From the NCBI GenBank assembly GCA_905479995.1, contig CAJQON010000005.1, forward strand, positions 1-63,933: a stretch of DNA of 63,933 nt, read 5' to 3'. Under the pieces are notes generated by a model. That model was given only the letters and a program-made list of their open reading frames with translations. It ran no database searches and was not told the DNA's origin. Of the stretch, positions 44,223-51,348 are shown piece after piece. Numbering within the stretch: the first letter of the stretch is position 1; every line of letters starts with the position of its first letter. The DNA is from an uncultured Flavobacteriales bacterium. Its GTDB lineage: Bacteria; Bacteroidota; Bacteroidia; Flavobacteriales_E; Vicingaceae. The translations under genes and the position numbers were made by a program.

Positions 44223-45185
44223 ATGCGCATTTTTATTACTGCAATCATATTAACCATAACTGCTTTTGGCAGTAAGTCTCAAATACTAGACATTAACCAA
44301 CCGCTATTTAGTGATGAACCTTTTTTTAACGCTAACTTTATTAAACGAAACAACATAAAATCAATAACTGGGTCAATTTCATCAAAAAAAGTGCGTGACA
44401 TAATAAGAACTAAAGGTTTAGATTATTTCTATGCCTTTAATAAAAATGGAACGTTAAAAACCCAATTATCCTCCCATTTTGCAAGCGGCCTTAAAGACTC
44501 TACCACTGTTGCATATCAATACAACAATAAAGGATTACTCTCTGTTAAGCGTAAAAACGATAGTTATGGATTTTTTTCATACAACTACAAGTACAATGAC
44601 AATGATTTAATAGTGCTGCAAACATATTGCAGAGATGAAAACAAGCATAAATCTAAGAGTGTCTTTGAAATAAAAAAACAATACATTATTTCTACAGACA
44701 GTTTTTCATATCAACAACACGATACTTCACAAACTAAAAAATATTTCTATAACGCTTATAAAAAAGTTTACAAAGAGCAAACCAACTACTATAATCAATA
44801 CGGATACCTTACAGAAGAATACACCAAATTTATTATAGGTAACAACAAAAAAAAAATTACTTATGAATATGATGAGTATGGACGAATTTTTAAAAAGCAT
44901 ACCTACACCAGTATTGCACAAGACAAAAAAACAACTGAAACATTTACCTATGATAAAGTAGGAAATGTACTTGACATTAAAATATTCAACAACAACGAAC
45001 ACATAACAACCAAACAGTTTTTGTACGACAACAAAACAATGCTACTTACCGCACAAATTATACAAGATATTGCATCTCAATACCTAAGAATTTTACAATA
45101 TGATTACTCTTTTTATGATGGAACCTCCAACTTTAGTTCATCAAAATCAATTGTTGACACAAGCCAAATAGAAGGCTCTGAATAA
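44223..45185 (+). CDS. Secreted YD-repeat-like protein
   Basis: A 320-residue protein with a signal peptide (MRIFITAIILTITAFGSKSQ) and repeated tyrosine/aspartate turn motifs resembling RHS/YD repeats (YEYDEYGRIFKKHTYT, FTYDKVGNVLDIKIF, YQYNNKGLLSVKRKN). Such beta repeats build open scaffolds in secreted proteins; here there are only a few units and no toxin domain. There is no T9SS sorting domain, so it is probably periplasmic or outer-membrane associated. The function is unknown. Confidence 0.7.
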   Translation: MRIFITAIILTITAFGSKSQILDINQPLFSDEPFFNANFIKRNNIKSITGSISSKKVRDIIRTKGLDYFYAFNKNGTLKTQLSSHFASGLKDSTTVAYQYNNKGLLSVKRKNDSYGFFSYNYKYNDNDLIVLQTYCRDENKHKSKSVFEIKKQYIISTDSFSYQQHDTSQTKKYFYNAYKKVYKEQTNYYNQYGYLTEEYTKFIIGNNKKKITYEYDEYGRIFKKHTYTSIAQDKKTTETFTYDKVGNVLDIKIFNNNEHITTKQFLYDNKTMLLTAQIIQDIASQYLRILQYDYSFYDGTSNFSSSKSIVDTSQIEGSE

Positions 45186-45247
45186 AGCGATCGTAACAGA
45201 TTTATAGCAATTCACCCAAGAGTTCTGTATATTTGAAGACAGGCAAT

Positions 45248-46849
45248 ATGCGTTATTTCATCCTAAATATCATTCTCTTCTTAAGCCTTAGCATAGCTGC
45301 TAAAGGAAAAAGCAATACTATAACCAGAGAAGATGTAAAAGATGATATTATAGATACCAACATAATTGATGCAAAACTATATCAACGACAAGGTAAGGCG
45401 GAGGAATCGCTCAAAAAAGGGCTAGAAGTATTGTCATCAGCAATTCAACTAACTCCAAAAGACAGCTTTCATATCTACAGCATATTAGCGAGTGGATTTT
45501 CAGCTATAAATGTTCATGAAACAGCATTTGAACATGCCAACAAATCTGCTAAAATACTAGCACGAATAAGCAACAACAAAGCAGCTGCAGCAGCATGGAT
45601 GCCCAAATACTGTATTGCTGCAAAACAATACACTTTGGCCATAAAGTATCTAAAACTAGACCTTGAAAATTGCTCAAAAACTACTAATACCCATAAGCTA
45701 CTCCGCCTCTACAATGACATTGGTTTTATTTACTATAAAAACCACCAACAAGACTCTTCTATTCATTATTACCTTAAAGTAATTGAATACGAACCGGACA
45801 GCAAAAGACCAATAGTAGGCGTTACCACAGGCAATTTAGGAATGATCTATTTTGACAATGCCGACTACAAAAAAGCCATCAAATACCTACAAATTGATGT
45901 AGAAATAAGCAAAGGAAAAGTCTGGGAATCCTATTGCAATGCAATGAATGGAATTGCAGATTGTCATTATCAACTGGGCAATTACTCTAAAGCAAACAAA
46001 GTGGTTGTTGAATTATTAGCAAGCAACAAACAAAGTGACAGATCATTAATTAAAAGCTATAAGCTACTTGCCAATATTTATCAAAAAACAAACCAAGAAG
46101 CCAAAAGCGCCCGTTATTTAAGAAAATATTACGCATTAGAAGAGGCCTTACGTAAAAAACAAGCCCCAAAATCGGATATGGCCAAACAAATTGCAGACTA
46201 TAAACTAAAATCTATTCAGTTAAATCTAAAACTCGCCAACAACGAGGTTAAACTTTTGGATGCACAATTAACCTCCGAAGCACTACAAAACAAAATGTAT
46301 CTCTTCATTCTCATTATGATTATACTTGCCATTACTATGGCAATAATATACTACAACACTAGGCAACGAAAAAATAAAGCAATACATCAGTTAGAGAGCG
46401 ACTTGCTTTCTGCTGAGCTAAAAAACAAGCAGAGTGATTTAGTTAATTTCAGTACCAACCTTAGCTATAAGAGAAAATTTATAAATGACCTGCAAGATAA
46501 GCTGAAGCAACTACAAAATAGCTCTCAAGAAGATTTGGATAAAAACTTAACCTTATTAATTAGGGAGTTAAACAGTTATGAAAATTCTGATAAAGGAGTA
46601 GAAACCATCCAAGCAGATATGGACAAAGTAAACAGTTCTTTTTTCAACAAATTGGGCGAAAAATTTCCTGCACTCACCCAAAACGAAAAAGAATTGTGTG
46701 GCCTTTTTATGTTAAAACTTTCTTCTAAAGATATTGCAACCATAAGAAGTGTTTCTGTTGGCGCTATAAAAAAGGCACGCCACAGGATACGAAAAAAATT
46801 ACCCATTAATGAGAGTGAAGAAATCATCACTTTTCTAGAGAACCTATAA
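45248..46849 (+). CDS. TPR sensor-like protein with membrane helix and HTH C-terminus
   Basis: A 533-residue protein, start at ATG 45248 (MRYFILNIILFLSLSIAAKG signal), with tetratricopeptide repeats (about 40-300; DIGFIYYKNHQQDSSIHYY, GNLGMIYFDNADYKKAIKY), one membrane helix (MYLFILIMIILAITMAIIYYN, about 350), a coiled coil and a C-terminal LuxR-type helix-turn-helix (LTQNEKELCGLFMLKLSSKDIA, then VSVGAIKKARHRIRKKL). This is a known Bacteroidota architecture in which periplasmic TPRs are linked to a cytoplasmic DNA-binding domain. It may regulate nearby T9SS genes, but that is inference. Confidence 0.85.
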   Translation: MRYFILNIILFLSLSIAAKGKSNTITREDVKDDIIDTNIIDAKLYQRQGKAEESLKKGLEVLSSAIQLTPKDSFHIYSILASGFSAINVHETAFEHANKSAKILARISNNKAAAAAWMPKYCIAAKQYTLAIKYLKLDLENCSKTTNTHKLLRLYNDIGFIYYKNHQQDSSIHYYLKVIEYEPDSKRPIVGVTTGNLGMIYFDNADYKKAIKYLQIDVEISKGKVWESYCNAMNGIADCHYQLGNYSKANKVVVELLASNKQSDRSLIKSYKLLANIYQKTNQEAKSARYLRKYYALEEALRKKQAPKSDMAKQIADYKLKSIQLNLKLANNEVKLLDAQLTSEALQNKMYLFILIMIILAITMAIIYYNTRQRKNKAIHQLESDLLSAELKNKQSDLVNFSTNLSYKRKFINDLQDKLKQLQNSSQEDLDKNLTLLIRELNSYENSDKGVETIQADMDKVNSSFFNKLGEKFPALTQNEKELCGLFMLKLSSKDIATIRSVSVGAIKKARHRIRKKLPINESEEIITFLENL

Positions 46850-46942
46850 ACAAGTGATCAGTCCCCTCATTGTCTCCCCATAAATTTTTAGTACATCAGT
46901 AGAGTTTAGTTGTTTTGTAATAACTAATAAGCTACTACCACA

Positions 46943-49108
46943 ATGTTCTATTCAATTCGTTTTCTCCTACTCGGAGTAATATTTATATCTTATCAAATTA
47001 CACAAGCACAAAACTTTGTTGTTACTACTACTTCCGATGCAGTAGACGCCAACATTGGTGATGGCACTTGTGATGATGGAGCAGGAAACTGTTCCCTACG
47101 AGCAGCCATACAGGAAAGCAATGCTCTTGGAGGTTCACATACCATTACTTTAGCTGCAGCAACATACACACTTACAATTGCTGGAGCAAATGAGAATGGA
47201 AGTGCAACAGGCGATCTAGACATTTCCAGTACAATTACCTTAAATGGTGTTTCAGCTCAAACAACACTTATTGATGCCAATGGTTTAGATAGGGTAATGC
47301 AAATTCTAAACACAGGAACCTTAACTGCAAGTAACATTTCATTTACTAGTGGAAGTATAACTGAAAATTATGGTGGAGGAATATTAAATAAAGGCACATT
47401 TACCTTTAGCAATGGTGAAATTTATTCAAATACAGCAAAATTATTAGATGGAACAACAAGCTTATATGGTGGTTTTGGTGGTGGATTGGCCAACTTTAAT
47501 ACAGCAACACTTACTAATGTAACAATAAGGACAAACTATGCATACGGGTCTGAAGGACCACAAGGCATAAATGGTGGAGGTGGAGGTGGTTCTACCCCGG
47601 GGTTTGGTGGTGCAATTTACAATTCGGCCACTGGAGTACTTGTAATAACAAATTCTACTCTTTCAGGAAATATGGCTGTAGGTGGGCTTGGCTCTAGAGG
47701 AATGGCAAACAATGGCAATAGCACATGGGCGGGTTCTTCCGGAGGGGGCGACTCTCCTGGTACAGGAGGAACAACTACTGGTAATCCTGGGACAAATGCT
47801 ACTGGAGAATATTCTGGAGGCGGTGGTGGCAGTAGCGAATGGACTAATGGTGGTAGTGGTGGTGATGGTGGCTATGGAGCTGGTGGAGGAGCTGTTGGTG
47901 CAAAAGCTGGTAGCGGATCGAGTGCAAATGCTGCTGGACTAGGTGGTTTTGGCGGTGGAAATGGTGGGAATGGCTGTTGTTCTTCAGGTGGAGGCGGTGG
48001 CGCTGGCGCTGGTTTTGGAGGTGGAATTTTTAACAATGGTGGAGATATAACAATTACCAACTCAACAATTGCCTACAATCAAGCCCTCGGTGGTGGTGGA
48101 AGTGGTGGTTTATATGGCTGGGCTCAAAGAGGTCTTAGAGGAACTGGACTTGGTGGTGGACTATTTAACCGAACAGGAACAATAAACATAAACAATACTT
48201 TAATCTCCAACAACAATGCTACTCAAGCAAACGGAACCTATACTGCATTAGATACTATTTATGGAGACCTTAGCGGAACCTTTACATCAAACACAGGTTA
48301 CAACCTAATTTATACACCTGGCACAGCAATAATTGGAGGAACAACTACCGGAAATATAACTGGAGCTGACCCACTTCTTTTGAGTTTAGGGTTTTGGGGC
48401 GGATCAACATTTACCCACGCTTTAAAAGATTGTACAACACCAAGTCCTGCCATTGATGCTGGACTAGATGCTGCTGCCCCTACTCTTGATCAAATTGGTG
48501 TGGCACGATATGATGTGACGACTATTGCTGGCACTAACATTTCTGACATTGGCTCATTTGAAAGTGTTTGTTATGTTTTGCCTGTTGAATTATTAGAATT
48601 TAACGCAAAATGTGAAAAAGGTCATGTAAAATTAATTTGGAGTACTTCCTCAGAAGTAAACAATGCATTTTTTACTATTGAAAAGAGTGATGACGGTATT
48701 CACTTTGAAACTATTAACAATATCGGAGGGAATGGAAACTCAAAACATCATATAGATTATGAATGGATAGATTTTGCCAATTCTAATTTAACCCAATATT
48801 ATAGACTAAAACAAACCGACAACAACGGAGACTTTGAATACCTTGGAATTCGAACAGCAAATTGCTATAATAAAAGTCAAATTAATGTTTATCCAAACCC
48901 TACTTCTGGTAATTTCACCATCAACCTTGGTCAAACTTACAACCAAATAGACGTAAAAATAAAAAACGTTTTAGGTCAAACAATAAGTAATAGTTCCCAC
49001 ACATCTTTGGAGCAAATAGTCCTAAGTGTTCTTGACAAAAATGGACTTTATTTTGTAGAAATAAGAATAGACAACAACGTTGAAGTGTTTAGAATTTTGA
49101 AAAAATGA
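46943..49108 (+). CDS. Glycine-rich CSLREA-type surface protein with T9SS sorting domain
   Basis: A 721-residue protein: signal peptide (SIRFLLLGVIFISYQITQAQ), a CSLREA-type N-terminal motif (GDGTCDDGAGNCSLRAAIQE, about 34-53), beta-helix-like strands, a glycine-rich region (about 200-390; blocks such as GGGGGSTPGFGG and GGNGGNGCCSSGGGGGAGAGFGGG), another beta-helix part, and a type A sorting domain with INVYPNPTSGNFTI. It is a probable surface-exposed parallel beta-helix with glycine loops. Downstream lies a GTAGTAGT hairpin module ending in a terminator. Confidence 0.85.
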   Translation: MFYSIRFLLLGVIFISYQITQAQNFVVTTTSDAVDANIGDGTCDDGAGNCSLRAAIQESNALGGSHTITLAAATYTLTIAGANENGSATGDLDISSTITLNGVSAQTTLIDANGLDRVMQILNTGTLTASNISFTSGSITENYGGGILNKGTFTFSNGEIYSNTAKLLDGTTSLYGGFGGGLANFNTATLTNVTIRTNYAYGSEGPQGINGGGGGGSTPGFGGAIYNSATGVLVITNSTLSGNMAVGGLGSRGMANNGNSTWAGSSGGGDSPGTGGTTTGNPGTNATGEYSGGGGGSSEWTNGGSGGDGGYGAGGGAVGAKAGSGSSANAAGLGGFGGGNGGNGCCSSGGGGGAGAGFGGGIFNNGGDITITNSTIAYNQALGGGGSGGLYGWAQRGLRGTGLGGGLFNRTGTININNTLISNNNATQANGTYTALDTIYGDLSGTFTSNTGYNLIYTPGTAIIGGTTTGNITGADPLLLSLGFWGGSTFTHALKDCTTPSPAIDAGLDAAAPTLDQIGVARYDVTTIAGTNISDIGSFESVCYVLPVELLEFNAKCEKGHVKLIWSTSSEVNNAFFTIEKSDDGIHFETINNIGGNGNSKHHIDYEWIDFANSNLTQYYRLKQTDNNGDFEYLGIRTANCYNKSQINVYPNPTSGNFTINLGQTYNQIDVKIKNVLGQTISNSSHTSLEQIVLSVLDKNGLYFVEIRIDNNVEVFRILKK

Positions 49109-49151
49109 TTCTGAAAACAACACAAAATCATTAAAAACAAAACACCAATAA

Positions 49152-49221
49152 TGTCTTTTAAGTATGTAGTAGTGCTTAATAGATAAAGAATGGCTATCCC
49201 TATAAGAGATGGCCATTTTTA
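49152..49221 (+). repeat. GTAGTAGT hairpin plus terminator module, copy A
   Basis: Hairpin 1: TCTTTTAAGT / GCTTAATAGA around a 10-nt loop ATGTAGTAGT. Hairpin 2: AATGGCTATC / GATGGCCATT followed by Ts, a working terminator for the glycine-rich protein gene. The same two-part layout recurs at 50568 and 50761. Confidence 0.75.
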
Positions 49222-49383
49222 AAATACCCCTTCTCAATTCAAATTAAAACGAGAAACCCAACCTTAAAAGACAACAACATTTGCCTACCAAAGAGAGCAA
49301 ATAAAATAAGTCACATTTAACCGAAAAGCCCAAAAACTCTAAAAAACAAGGACTTACACTCGCCAATACACTCCCTTTATTCT

Positions 49384-49436
49384 TCACGTATGTCCGTGAA
49401 TTCAAAAGCTCCAACAATTATCACTCATATGCGTGA
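49384..49436. promoter_or_regulatory. Two 16-bp palindromic sites upstream of the LamG gene
   Basis: TCACGTATGTCCGTGA (49384-49399) and TCACTCATATGCGTGA (49421-49436) share TCAC-N8-GTGA and are 37 bases apart centre to centre. Their centres are about 81 and 44 bases before the predicted transcription start, the usual positions for activator binding. The promoter between them and the gene has a perfect -7 box but no -33 TTG. Confidence 0.55.
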
Positions 49437-49458
49437 AATAAAATCAATGTAAGCAGTC

Positions 49459-49466
49459 TAAATTTG
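49459..49466 (+). promoter_or_regulatory. -7 box of the LamG gene
   Basis: TAAATTTG matches TAnnTTTG exactly, 33 nt before the ATG at 49500. The expected -33 TTG is missing, consistent with activator dependence. Confidence 0.5.
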
Positions 49467-49499
49467 AAGCATATTAATCATTACATAAAAATAAACTTT

Positions 49500-50486
49500 A
49501 TGAAAAAAATATACACTATTATACTTGCAAGCTTTTTTGCAATTTCTGTTAACGCTCAAACAGCATTAACCTTTGATGGAGTTGATGACCAAGTTAATTT
49601 CTCTAACTCAACACCATTTGATGTAATTGGAAATGTAACAGTTGAAGCAAAAGTAAAAATGAACACAGTTCTTGACTATCAAGCCTTTGTTACTAACATG
49701 GATTATGACGCCAACTCAGCTTATAGAGGCTATTGGTTAGGAACAGATGACTTAGGCTATGCATTGTGGTTTATTGGTGATACTAACTTGGTAGAAGATG
49801 GAGAGTACTTGTATTCTCAAAACTTAATTGACGATGGAAGCTGGCATCACGTAGCTGGAGTTGTTAAAGGAGATTCTGCATTTTTATATGTTGATGGAGT
49901 TTTAGATACTGCAGCAAACATTCCAAACTTAAGCTTAGCATCTGCTGGACTTTTTACTTTTGGAACTGATGTTGATGGTTACTTATACGCAGGAGAATTA
50001 GATGATGTTAGATTTTGGAATGTTTCTCAAACAGCTAGCGATATAAGTCTTCTTAAAGATTCTTGTTTAACAGGATCAGAAACTGGTTTAGTTATGTTCC
50101 AACATTTTGAACAAGGTGCTGGTGGTTTAACAACTTATGATTTAACTTCTAATGGATATGACGGAACAATGTCTAACATGGACATGAACGGTAGTTGGGT
50201 TGCAGGAATTAACTGCCAACAGGTTAGCACTAATGTTAATATCCATAACAAAAAGGAATTAACTTCAGTTTACCCAAACCCAAACAAAGGAACAATAACA
50301 GTTCAGTTAAACGGACTAAACAACGTTTCAATTAACATTTACAATGTAACTGGTAAGTTAATTTACAACGCAAACAGCATTAATGAAACAACACATCAAA
50401 TTAATTTAAATGGTAACCCTGGTTTATACTTATTAGAAATTAATTCTAATGAAGGAAGCCAATACCATAAACTAATGAAGAACTAA
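49500..50486 (+). CDS. LamG-fold secreted protein with T9SS type A sorting domain
   Basis: A 328-residue protein starting at ATG 49500 (MKKIYTIILASFFAISVNAQ signal); the frame is open 12 codons further up, but that part is not signal-like. Residues about 20-215 are a concanavalin-like LamG_3 domain (LTFDGVDDQVNFSN, GSWHHVAGVVKGDSAFLYVDG, GELDDVRFWN), followed by a cysteine-containing tail and a sorting domain (LTSVYPNPNKGTITVQLNG). It probably binds glycans or proteins at the cell surface. A hairpin begins at its stop codon, and two hairpin/terminator modules follow. Confidence 0.87.
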   Translation: MKKIYTIILASFFAISVNAQTALTFDGVDDQVNFSNSTPFDVIGNVTVEAKVKMNTVLDYQAFVTNMDYDANSAYRGYWLGTDDLGYALWFIGDTNLVEDGEYLYSQNLIDDGSWHHVAGVVKGDSAFLYVDGVLDTAANIPNLSLASAGLFTFGTDVDGYLYAGELDDVRFWNVSQTASDISLLKDSCLTGSETGLVMFQHFEQGAGGLTTYDLTSNGYDGTMSNMDMNGSWVAGINCQQVSTNVNIHNKKELTSVYPNPNKGTITVQLNGLNNVSINIYNVTGKLIYNANSINETTHQINLNGNPGLYLLEINSNEGSQYHKLMKN

Positions 50487-50510
50487 ATCTATTCATAGGA
50501 AATAGATTTA
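50484..50510 (+). other. Hairpin at the stop codon of the LamG gene
   Basis: TAAATCTATT and AATAGATTTA form a perfect 10-bp stem with a 7-nt loop, and the stop codon TAA is the first three bases of the stem. There is no T-run after it. Confidence 0.5.
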
Positions 50511-50567
50511 GAATACAACCATTAGCTTTCCTATTGTAAGGTTAGGAATGTAGTAAGATTAGTAGTT

Positions 50568-50650
50568 AGATCTTTTAAGTGTGTAGTAGTGCTTAATAGA
50601 TAAAAAATGATTGGCTCTTTTTAATTACCTTTAAGAGTCAGTCATTTTTA
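50568..50650 (+). repeat. GTAGTAGT hairpin plus terminator module, copy B
   Basis: Hairpin 1: ATCTTTTAAGT / GCTTAATAGAT with loop GTGTAGTAGT. Hairpin 2: AATGATTGGCTCTT / AAGAGTCAGTCATT followed by Ts. The stem sequence differs from copy A while pairing is kept. Confidence 0.75.
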
Positions 50651-50730
50651 AAGCCTTCAAAACAACAGAAAATAACCCTAACATTTCAACGGAAATGTGA
50701 TATAACATAGTAGTAGTATAGGTTGTTTAG

Positions 50731-50760
50731 ATCTAAAAGTAGGTAGTAGTATTTTTAGAT
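50731..50760 (+). repeat. Lone GTAGTAGT hairpin
   Basis: ATCTAAAAGT / ATTTTTAGAT pairs along all ten positions (one G-U) around the loop AGGTAGTAGT. The stem differs from the neighbouring copies but the loop is the same. Confidence 0.7.
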
Positions 50761-50832
50761 GAATCTTTTAAGTGTGTAGTAGTACTTAAAGATTAAGAAT
50801 GGCCGTCTCTTCTCAGAGGCGGTCATTTTTTA
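50761..50832 (+). repeat. GTAGTAGT hairpin plus terminator module, copy C
   Basis: Hairpin 1: AATCTTTTAAGT / ACTTAAAGATT (one bulged T) with loop GTGTAGTAGT. Hairpin 2: AATGGCCGTCTCT / AGAGGCGGTCATT with a 4-nt loop and a T-run. It also separates the convergent DUF420 gene. Confidence 0.75.
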
Positions 50833-51348
50833 TTACACATAATAAGGGGAAATCATTAAATACACCACTACCCCGGTAACAGCAACATAAAGCCATAGAG
50901 GAAATGCTATTCGAGCAATTTTTTTGTGTTCATCAAACAATTCCGACAAAGCTCTGGTATATGTAATTAATACCAAAGGAATAATAGCAATAGACAGTAC
51001 GATGTGCGTAATTAAAACAAAGTAATAAACGTAGCTTATAATGCCTTCACCTCCAAATTCAGTAGAATTTGAAGTCATATGGTAAGCAATATACATCCCT
51101 AAAAAAAGAATAGAGAGGATTAAATTTGTTTTCATTAACCGCTCATGTAACACACGCTTTCCATTTTTAATAGCTATCACCGCCAACACTAATAAAATTG
51201 CTGTAAGTCCATTAATACTAGCATAAATTGGAGGTAAAAAACTTAAAGGTTCTACATTAGGTATTTTAACACCAAACAAAGCCGCAACAGCAAGTGGTAA
51301 AACAATAGAAATTAAAACGGTAAGTTTCTTATACTTGTTTTTTGTCAT
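50833..51348 (-). CDS. DUF420 membrane protein
   Basis: A 171-residue protein with about five membrane helices (VLISIVLPLAVAALFGV, ILLVLAVIAIKNGKRVLHERLMKTN, YYFVLITHIVLSIAIIPLVLITY). The KRVLHERLMKTNL segment and closely spaced histidines are typical of DUF420, a family that accompanies haem-copper oxidase assembly genes. It overlaps ctaB by 4 bases, in line with a role in cytochrome oxidase biogenesis. Confidence 0.85.
   Translation of the reverse strand: MTKNKYKKLTVLISIVLPLAVAALFGVKIPNVEPLSFLPPIYASINGLTAILLVLAVIAIKNGKRVLHERLMKTNLILSILFLGMYIAYHMTSNSTEFGGEGIISYVYYFVLITHIVLSIAIIPLVLITYTRALSELFDEHKKIARIAFPLWLYVAVTGVVVYLMISPYYV

Follow-up and report, generated by a model that had tools for sequence, protein, structure and literature searches.

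Small RNA structures at the 3' ends of secreted surface-protein genes: an apparently undescribed family in one genus of Vicingaceae

Introduction

What is the role of hairpins that share a loop motif and stand behind genes for secreted surface proteins? This question is raised by a contig of an uncultured Flavobacteriales bacterium (family Vicingaceae), in which four hairpins (A to D) with loops ending in GTAGTAGT are placed 3' of two cargo genes of the type IX secretion system (T9SS). Bacteroidota have many such genes, and to our knowledge the co-ordination of their expression is poorly known. An element that recurs behind them provides a sequence tag for a possible regulon and a bait for a binding partner. 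Here we analysed the window, meaning the whole stretch of 63,933 nt, together with the genome it belongs to and other genomes of the family. The hairpins are apparently members of an undescribed family of small RNA structures found in one genus.

Results

Four hairpins behind two T9SS cargo genes

The hairpins lie in a module (45186-50832) that holds a TPR-HTH gene and two T9SS cargo genes. The module and its surroundings contain the following features.

44223-45185: RHS-like gene, recognised by eye
45233-46849, plus strand: first gene of the module, encoding a TPR protein whose C-terminal region is HTH-like; HTH assigned only from weak, sub-cut-off matches to sigma70 region 4 and response regulators
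46943-49108, plus strand: CSLREA / choice-of-anchor Q / T9SS type A cargo gene, preceding hairpin A
49152-49185, plus strand: hairpin A, loop ATGTAGTAGT, in the 3'UTR of the CSLREA/T9SS gene; element A spans 49150-49225 and is matched by models R2 and R3
49186-49220, plus strand: terminator-like hairpin after A (AATGGCTATC...GATGGCCATTTTT), from folding; not called by the terminator scan
49383-49400, plus strand: inverted repeat TTCACGTATGTCCGTGAA before the LamG gene, a possible operator
49464-50486, plus strand: LamG / T9SS type A cargo gene, preceding hairpins B-D; the likelier start is the ATG at 49500
50487-50832, plus strand: LamG 3'UTR with six TAGTAG motifs (50560, 50584, 50708, 50711, 50744, 50777), from a motif count
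50570-50601, plus strand: hairpin B, loop GTGTAGTAGT, in the 3'UTR of the LamG/T9SS gene; element B spans 50567-50654
50603-50649, plus strand: terminator-like hairpin after B, from folding; not called by the terminator scan
50731-50760, plus strand: hairpin C, loop AGGTAGTAGT, with a different stem and without its own terminator, in tandem with D; fold z-score -4.0
50762-50794, plus strand: hairpin D, loop GTGTAGTAGT; element D spans 50760-50835
50795-50830, plus strand: terminator-like hairpin after D, from folding, abutting the convergent DUF420 gene; not called by the terminator scan
50833-51348: DUF420 gene, convergent

The DUF420 and RHS-like genes are adjacent and directly convergent, as judged by eye, in six relatives, five from the same genus and one from another genus of the family. 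This suggests that the 5.6-kb module is a local insertion or was lost in these relatives. The nearest named record to the DUF420 gene is a Vicingaceae MAG (87% identity). Comparison with plasmid DNA, phage DNA and viral contigs gave nothing informative.

All four hairpins described in the initial annotation are present and above chance. Three matches to TTTTAAGTNTGTAGTAGTNCTTAA with up to three mismatches were found against 0.01 expected, and the fold z-scores were -6.2 for A and -3.1 for B, each with its terminator, and -5.7 for C and D with theirs. Folding supports hairpins A, B and C. Hairpins C and D compete: they are not both formed in the minimum-energy fold of 50700-50835, and the centroid retains C and part of D. 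The core AAGTRTGTAGTAGTRCTTAA, with up to three mismatches, occurs at seven places in the 3.1-Mb genome, exactly only at A, B and D, and its reversed control gave no matches there. Core matches on contigs C2, C17, C36 and C37 were rejected as members, having three mismatches each and lying inside open frames of 242-726 codons.

The annotation had also described a constant 10-nt loop on differing stems that keep pairing. The shared motif stands, while the loop length does not: positions 1 and 10 are pairable (A-U, G-U or G-C) in every copy compared, so that at most the 8 nt KGTAGTAG remain as the loop, and 6 nt in hairpin A when folded at minimum energy. As to the stems, the upper stem is nearly identical in A, B and D, and a truly different one is found within the window only in C; the exchange is clearer on contig C50 of the same genome and in relatives. 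Among 50 distinct KGTAGTAG sites from the window and 42 loci of its genome, a subset of the genome's sites, seven are flanked by at least five contiguous pairs. These seven are hairpins A-D, two hairpins on C50 and, on contig C11, the loop of a terminator hairpin.

Terminator-like hairpins were found directly after A, B and D, in agreement with the annotation. A mechanical consensus scan of the window called none of the three, so the label "terminator" rests on folding and inspection of the T run. Pairing between their A and U tracts may be why the scan missed them. The 346-nt LamG 3'UTR holds six TAGTAG motifs, where the remainder of the contig would predict 0.08 (Poisson P 2.5e-10, an optimistic value because motif and region were picked after viewing the sequence).

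Relatives of the hairpins occur throughout much of one genus

Searching with R2, a covariance model built on A, B and D, we recovered one more copy on C50 behind a LamG paralogue of 72% identity (E 9.9e-6), where two hairpins AAGTG-GGTAGTAG-CACTT stand in tandem. R2 also gave weaker matches in other genomes of the genus, part real and part noise. Model R3, built after inspecting the R2 matches, has 12 training members including A, D and the C50 copy. We searched R3 in 46 genomes of the family, 14 from the genus and 32 others. At E<=0.01 it gave 50 matches (the weakest doubtful) in 10 of the 14 genus genomes, with 2-9 per genome and eight in the genome of the window; 38 of these were not training members and 12 were. 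The genus genomes without a match at this threshold are G003, G006, G007 and G012. Relaxing the threshold to E<=0.5 gave some match in each of the 14, and the extra ones were treated as noise. None of the 32 other genomes had a convincing match, and three of them had one weak match each.

Copies in relatives had thus been rightly anticipated, and the family reaches beyond the window, but across the 46 genomes searched it belongs to one genus rather than to Flavobacteriales. Matches in nine other genomes, behind diverged cargo genes, lead us to reject the view that the hairpins are recent tandem duplicates of one terminator. Both homologues beyond the starting copies and pair-preserving changes, the marks of a new structured-RNA family, were found.

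For the context counts, 10 of 54 R3 matches with scores below 44 bits were dropped, leaving 44. Several of the dropped matches resemble generic hairpin-terminators, and at least one (L195) has a typical hairpin 1. The sole match from outside the genus among the 44 (L190, genome G030) lacks the conserved loop and is not regarded as a member; it follows a T9SS gene and stays included in the counts of 40, 34 and 39 given below. Another hairpin, TTAAATGT-ATGTAGTAGT-ACATTTAA (L203 1501-1526, on contig C28 of the same genome; R1 E 8e-4), forms a perfect 8 bp and is intergenic. It lies between two minus-strand genes without a same-strand upstream gene, and we left it uncounted as doubtful.

The element is bipartite and both helices covary

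In its common form the element begins with an AU-rich hairpin 1, mostly TTCTTTTAAGT-TTTAAATGACYGG-RCTTAAAAGA, followed by a linker of about 7 nt and a terminator-like hairpin, AATGGCYRT...CAGCCATTTTTT. Covariation of the stems, as first proposed from the window, was recovered on model-fitted and on independent alignments. In alignment A7, 8 of 21 pairs changed on both sides against a shuffled mean of 4.0. A model-fitted alignment of 54 sequences, which is biased towards the structure and includes weak matches, showed both-side changes in 19 of 21 pairs, including all 11 of helix 1, with 127 double-change cells against 38.0 after shuffling. In an independent MAFFT alignment of 35 sequences, RNAalifold recovered both helices, and 14 of 18 pairs had a kept double change. 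The number of sequences with such a change was at most two per pair in helix 1 and up to 14 in the terminator hairpin. Because these alignments contain paralogues of related genomes, part of the covariation reflects shared descent.

Conservation reaches 2 bits per site inside the element and drops to background at its edges. The flanks average 0.13-0.28 bits per site (10-nt means), except for 0.54 in the last 10 nt upstream. Hairpin 1 is weak, with a mean of -7.9 kcal/mol for the first 42 nt (n=39). A weak hairpin with a conserved sequence suggests recognition rather than mechanical protection.

The elements follow T9SS cargo genes

We next considered what lies upstream. For 40 of the 44 elements, an ORF of 100 aa or more on the same strand terminates no further than 1.5 kb upstream, compared with 24 when the opposite strand is read. 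The exceptions are L168 and L188, both at contig ends, L172 and L130. The nearest such ORF carries a Por_Secre_tail domain in 34 of 39 distinct proteins by Pfam and likewise by NCBIfam, and a cruder regular expression for the T9SS tail matched 31/44. The cargo tails are only 11-24% identical to the first of the 39. This location behind ORFs with T9SS tails supports the proposal that T9SS genes have a structured element in their 3'UTR. Only a minority of T9SS transcripts would end in it: the genome of the window has eight matches against 40 LamG-query hits, many of which cover the sorting tail only.

A small gene often stands between the cargo gene and the element. It encodes a single-TM protein of 45-52 aa (MEKVIKTVYTSLYQ...), a protein of 30-39 aa (...NIHAYLFW...) or a protein of 80 aa. 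The small-TM-gene family is wider than the element. Of its 38 matches, 29 were tried and 26 had downstream DNA that was read correctly; eight of these 26 have an element within 130 nt downstream. The element is therefore not obligatory after the small TM gene.

One loop motif occurs in either hairpin

The GTAGTAGT loop, initially taken as constant, is not the hallmark of the family. In hairpin 1 it was found only in the genome of the window, and the genus-wide loop is TTTTAAATGACYGG. The motif KGTRGTAG is present in 12 of the 44 elements, five times in hairpin 1, seven times in the terminator hairpin and never in both. The hairpin-1 cases among these matches of at least 44 bits are elements A, B and D and two elements on C50. 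Two more GTAGTAG loops, without their own terminators, are found in hairpin C and in the second tandem hairpin of C50. In a C50 copy situated 21 nt downstream of a T9SS gene, the loop sits on a stem of unrelated sequence, AACCATT-GGGTAGTAGC-ATATGGTT, that requires one bulged base. The genome of the window has at least two different hairpin-1 loops, so loops are not uniform even there. The element on its contig C21 has the hairpin-1 loop TTTTAGTAGATGG, perhaps an intermediate form.

The seven terminator-hairpin cases come from contigs C11 and C21 of the same genome, from G010 (four) and from G005 (one). They resemble one another and may share descent. Their motif need not be an open octaloop, since minimum-energy folds of terminator hairpins often pair part of it. 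The C11 terminator hairpin and hairpin A have the loop TGTAGTAG in common on different stems. That different stems carry a single loop motif is the strongest sign of the loop being read, and the occurrence of the motif in either of two hairpins predicts that the loop, not the stem, is read.

Comparison with known RNA families

No Rfam family, Flavo-1 (RF01705) included, fits at the cut-off, and the whole window has no match at the gathering thresholds. The best weak scores in 49000-51000 were 19.9-23.5 bits, all under cut-offs of 38-115. GibS (RF04182), with its gathering score of 115, reached 21.5 bits at E 4.3, and no FopS model was among the matches. At eight loci holding relatives, one weak match of 28.2 bits against a cut-off of 55 lies outside the element. 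A literature search, with most subscription papers outside its scope, found no description of the element.

The 3'UTR-derived sRNAs of other bacteria consist of a hairpin and a terminator at the mRNA end. The present element, with its terminator-like hairpin, resembles this layout but has no Rfam similarity to them. CsrB/RsmZ-type sponge RNAs repeat a short GGA motif in hairpin loops; here the motif is UAGUAG instead of GGA, and it stands within an mRNA 3'UTR. Flavo-1 is likewise a structured Bacteroidetes RNA motif of unknown function (PMC2864571). In F. psychrophilum, Flavo-1 is reported to overlap several 5' transcribed regions (PMC9723704), whereas ours is a 3' element without an Rfam match.

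The nearest conceptual relative is FopS of Bacteroides. It has 14 members, nine intergenic, four antisense and one derived from a 3'UTR, with a single-stranded 5' seed, a terminator and own promoters, and is bound by RbpB (PMC11697453). Like FopS and GibS as described there, our elements are multicopy paralogous Bacteroidota RNAs that have a terminator hairpin and are linked to surface-protein genes (PMC11697453). They differ in structure, location and partner: the conserved loop is in an additional hairpin, the elements are at 3' ends of T9SS operons, no promoter was found before them, and no RRM protein was found in the carriers.

Proposed function and alternative explanations

We propose, with a probability of about one half, that transcripts of T9SS cargo operons end in a bipartite RNA element specific to this genus, and that its loop is read by a candidate trans-acting factor. 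The computational observations are a family, a covarying structure with sharp edges, a site behind T9SS genes and the same loop motif in either hairpin. From these we infer transcription of the element, termination, recognition by a factor and an effect on the mRNA. The downstream hairpin would end transcription. The weak upstream hairpin would present the conserved loop, UUUUAAAUGACYGG in most copies and KGUAGUAG in the subclass of the window's genome, as a recognition site for the factor, most likely an RNA-binding protein or a processing enzyme. This factor could set the stability of the 3' end or co-ordinate T9SS cargo messages. A more speculative extension, to which we give little weight, is an RNA-level T9SS regulon. 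Here, a factor specific for the UGUAGUAG and sister UUUUAAAUGACYGG loops would mark cargo 3' ends and co-ordinate the messages, the LamG 3'UTR with its six UAGUAG would titrate the factor, and the motif in either hairpin would be the footprint of selection on the loop alone.

The main rival is a small RNA derived from the 3'UTR, in which cleavage would release the last 75-80 nt of the T9SS transcript and the loop of hairpin 1 would be a seed pairing with other messages. Multicopy paralogues made of a hairpin and a terminator-like hairpin have the shape of many small RNAs, and FopS sets a multicopy precedent, one of its 14 members being derived from a 3'UTR (PMC11697453). However, the conserved loop has no excess of perfectly complementary sites: the exact 14-mer loop TTTTAAWTGACYGR occurs 26 times in 14 genomes, 21 times in the elements and five times elsewhere, which does not exceed the seven of a reversed-pattern control. 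In the genome of the window TGTAGTAGT is not enriched either (22+34 versus 41+55 in the control). RRM_1 proteins (PF00076, RbpB-like) were found in one of the 14 genus genomes, several of which are only 71-84% complete; this one (G006) lacks an element at E<=0.01, and no carrier had such a protein. Bacteroidetes-type promoters follow the consensus TTG-N17-21-TAnnTTTG. The full consensus was absent from the 250 nt upstream of all 43 elements searched (0.64 expected), and the -7 box alone was present there in five of 43 against 7.5 expected. Given neither a promoter nor an excess of complementary sites, the positive evidence for a small RNA is its shape, and we consider this explanation unlikely.

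Alternatively, the elements may be ordinary terminators inherited with duplicated T9SS modules, with hairpin 1 a mere 3' protector whose loop has no role. Copies do occur in paralogous modules, such as that of the LamG paralogue on C50 (72% identity), and C and D, standing in tandem, have the appearance of a local duplication. Simple inheritance is nevertheless difficult to reconcile with cargo tails of 11-24% identity behind which hairpin 1 and its loop are nearly constant in most copies while the flanks are unconserved, or with the same loop on the different C50 stem. This makes ordinary terminators a doubtful explanation, about on a par with the small RNA. Distinctly less probable is a protein-sequestering RNA, CsrB/RsmZ-like in principle, in which the LamG 3'UTR would titrate a candidate UAGUAG-binding protein. 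The six UAGUAG against 0.08 expected, three of them in hairpin loops, and the tandem hairpins on C50 are consistent with it. The array is limited to one 3'UTR, though, with A having one motif and C50 two; its sites include overlapping and unpaired copies, its P value is optimistic, and there is no known partner. We regard as very improbable a mobile DNA hairpin, REP/MITE-like or a cassette end, that spreads between module ends. It would fit a multicopy element of one genus, the position of the window module between genes that are neighbours in six relatives, and a G002 copy between DEAD-box helicase and molybdenum-cofactor genes (by eye) that has no ORF of 100 aa or more on its strand within 1.5 kb. 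Against it stand the orientation bias (40/44 versus 24/44 reversed) and the counts of attC and REP signatures: paired integron attC boxes (GTTRRRY / RYYYAAC) within 40 nt occur in 0/44 elements, with one box in 14/44, and a REP foot (GTAG/GGAG) at the 5' end of the palindrome in 1/44.

Small proteins and repeats near the elements

Members of the small single-TM family (45-52 aa, MEKVIKTVYTSLYQKTTGVTYREQ...) at T9SS operon ends include L125 8403-8558 and copies at L165, L169 and L124; the copies searched had no significant Pfam or NCBIfam match. The 30-39 aa protein (...NIHAYLFWFF...) is also found at T9SS operon ends. A protein of 80-81 aa recurs between T9SS genes and the element (L131 3772-4014, L126 7664-7909), and its L131 copy has a sub-cut-off match to DUF7793 (E 8.6e-5). 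At L130 (7761-8168) the element is antisense at the end of an apparent DEAD-box helicase gene, with TATCTTTG 143 nt upstream; an independent transcript or a module relic is possible.

The inverted repeat before the LamG gene follows the pattern TCACG-N6-CGTGA, which was absent from one shuffled control. The pattern was found at six distinct places: 49383-49400 in the window, L126 7961 and 9103, L132 8775 and 8811, and L184 880. It is possibly an operator of the linked TPR-HTH regulators. Four of the six places precede LamG/T9SS genes by 47-99 nt, in three genomes, and a fifth is just past the end of a LamG gene.
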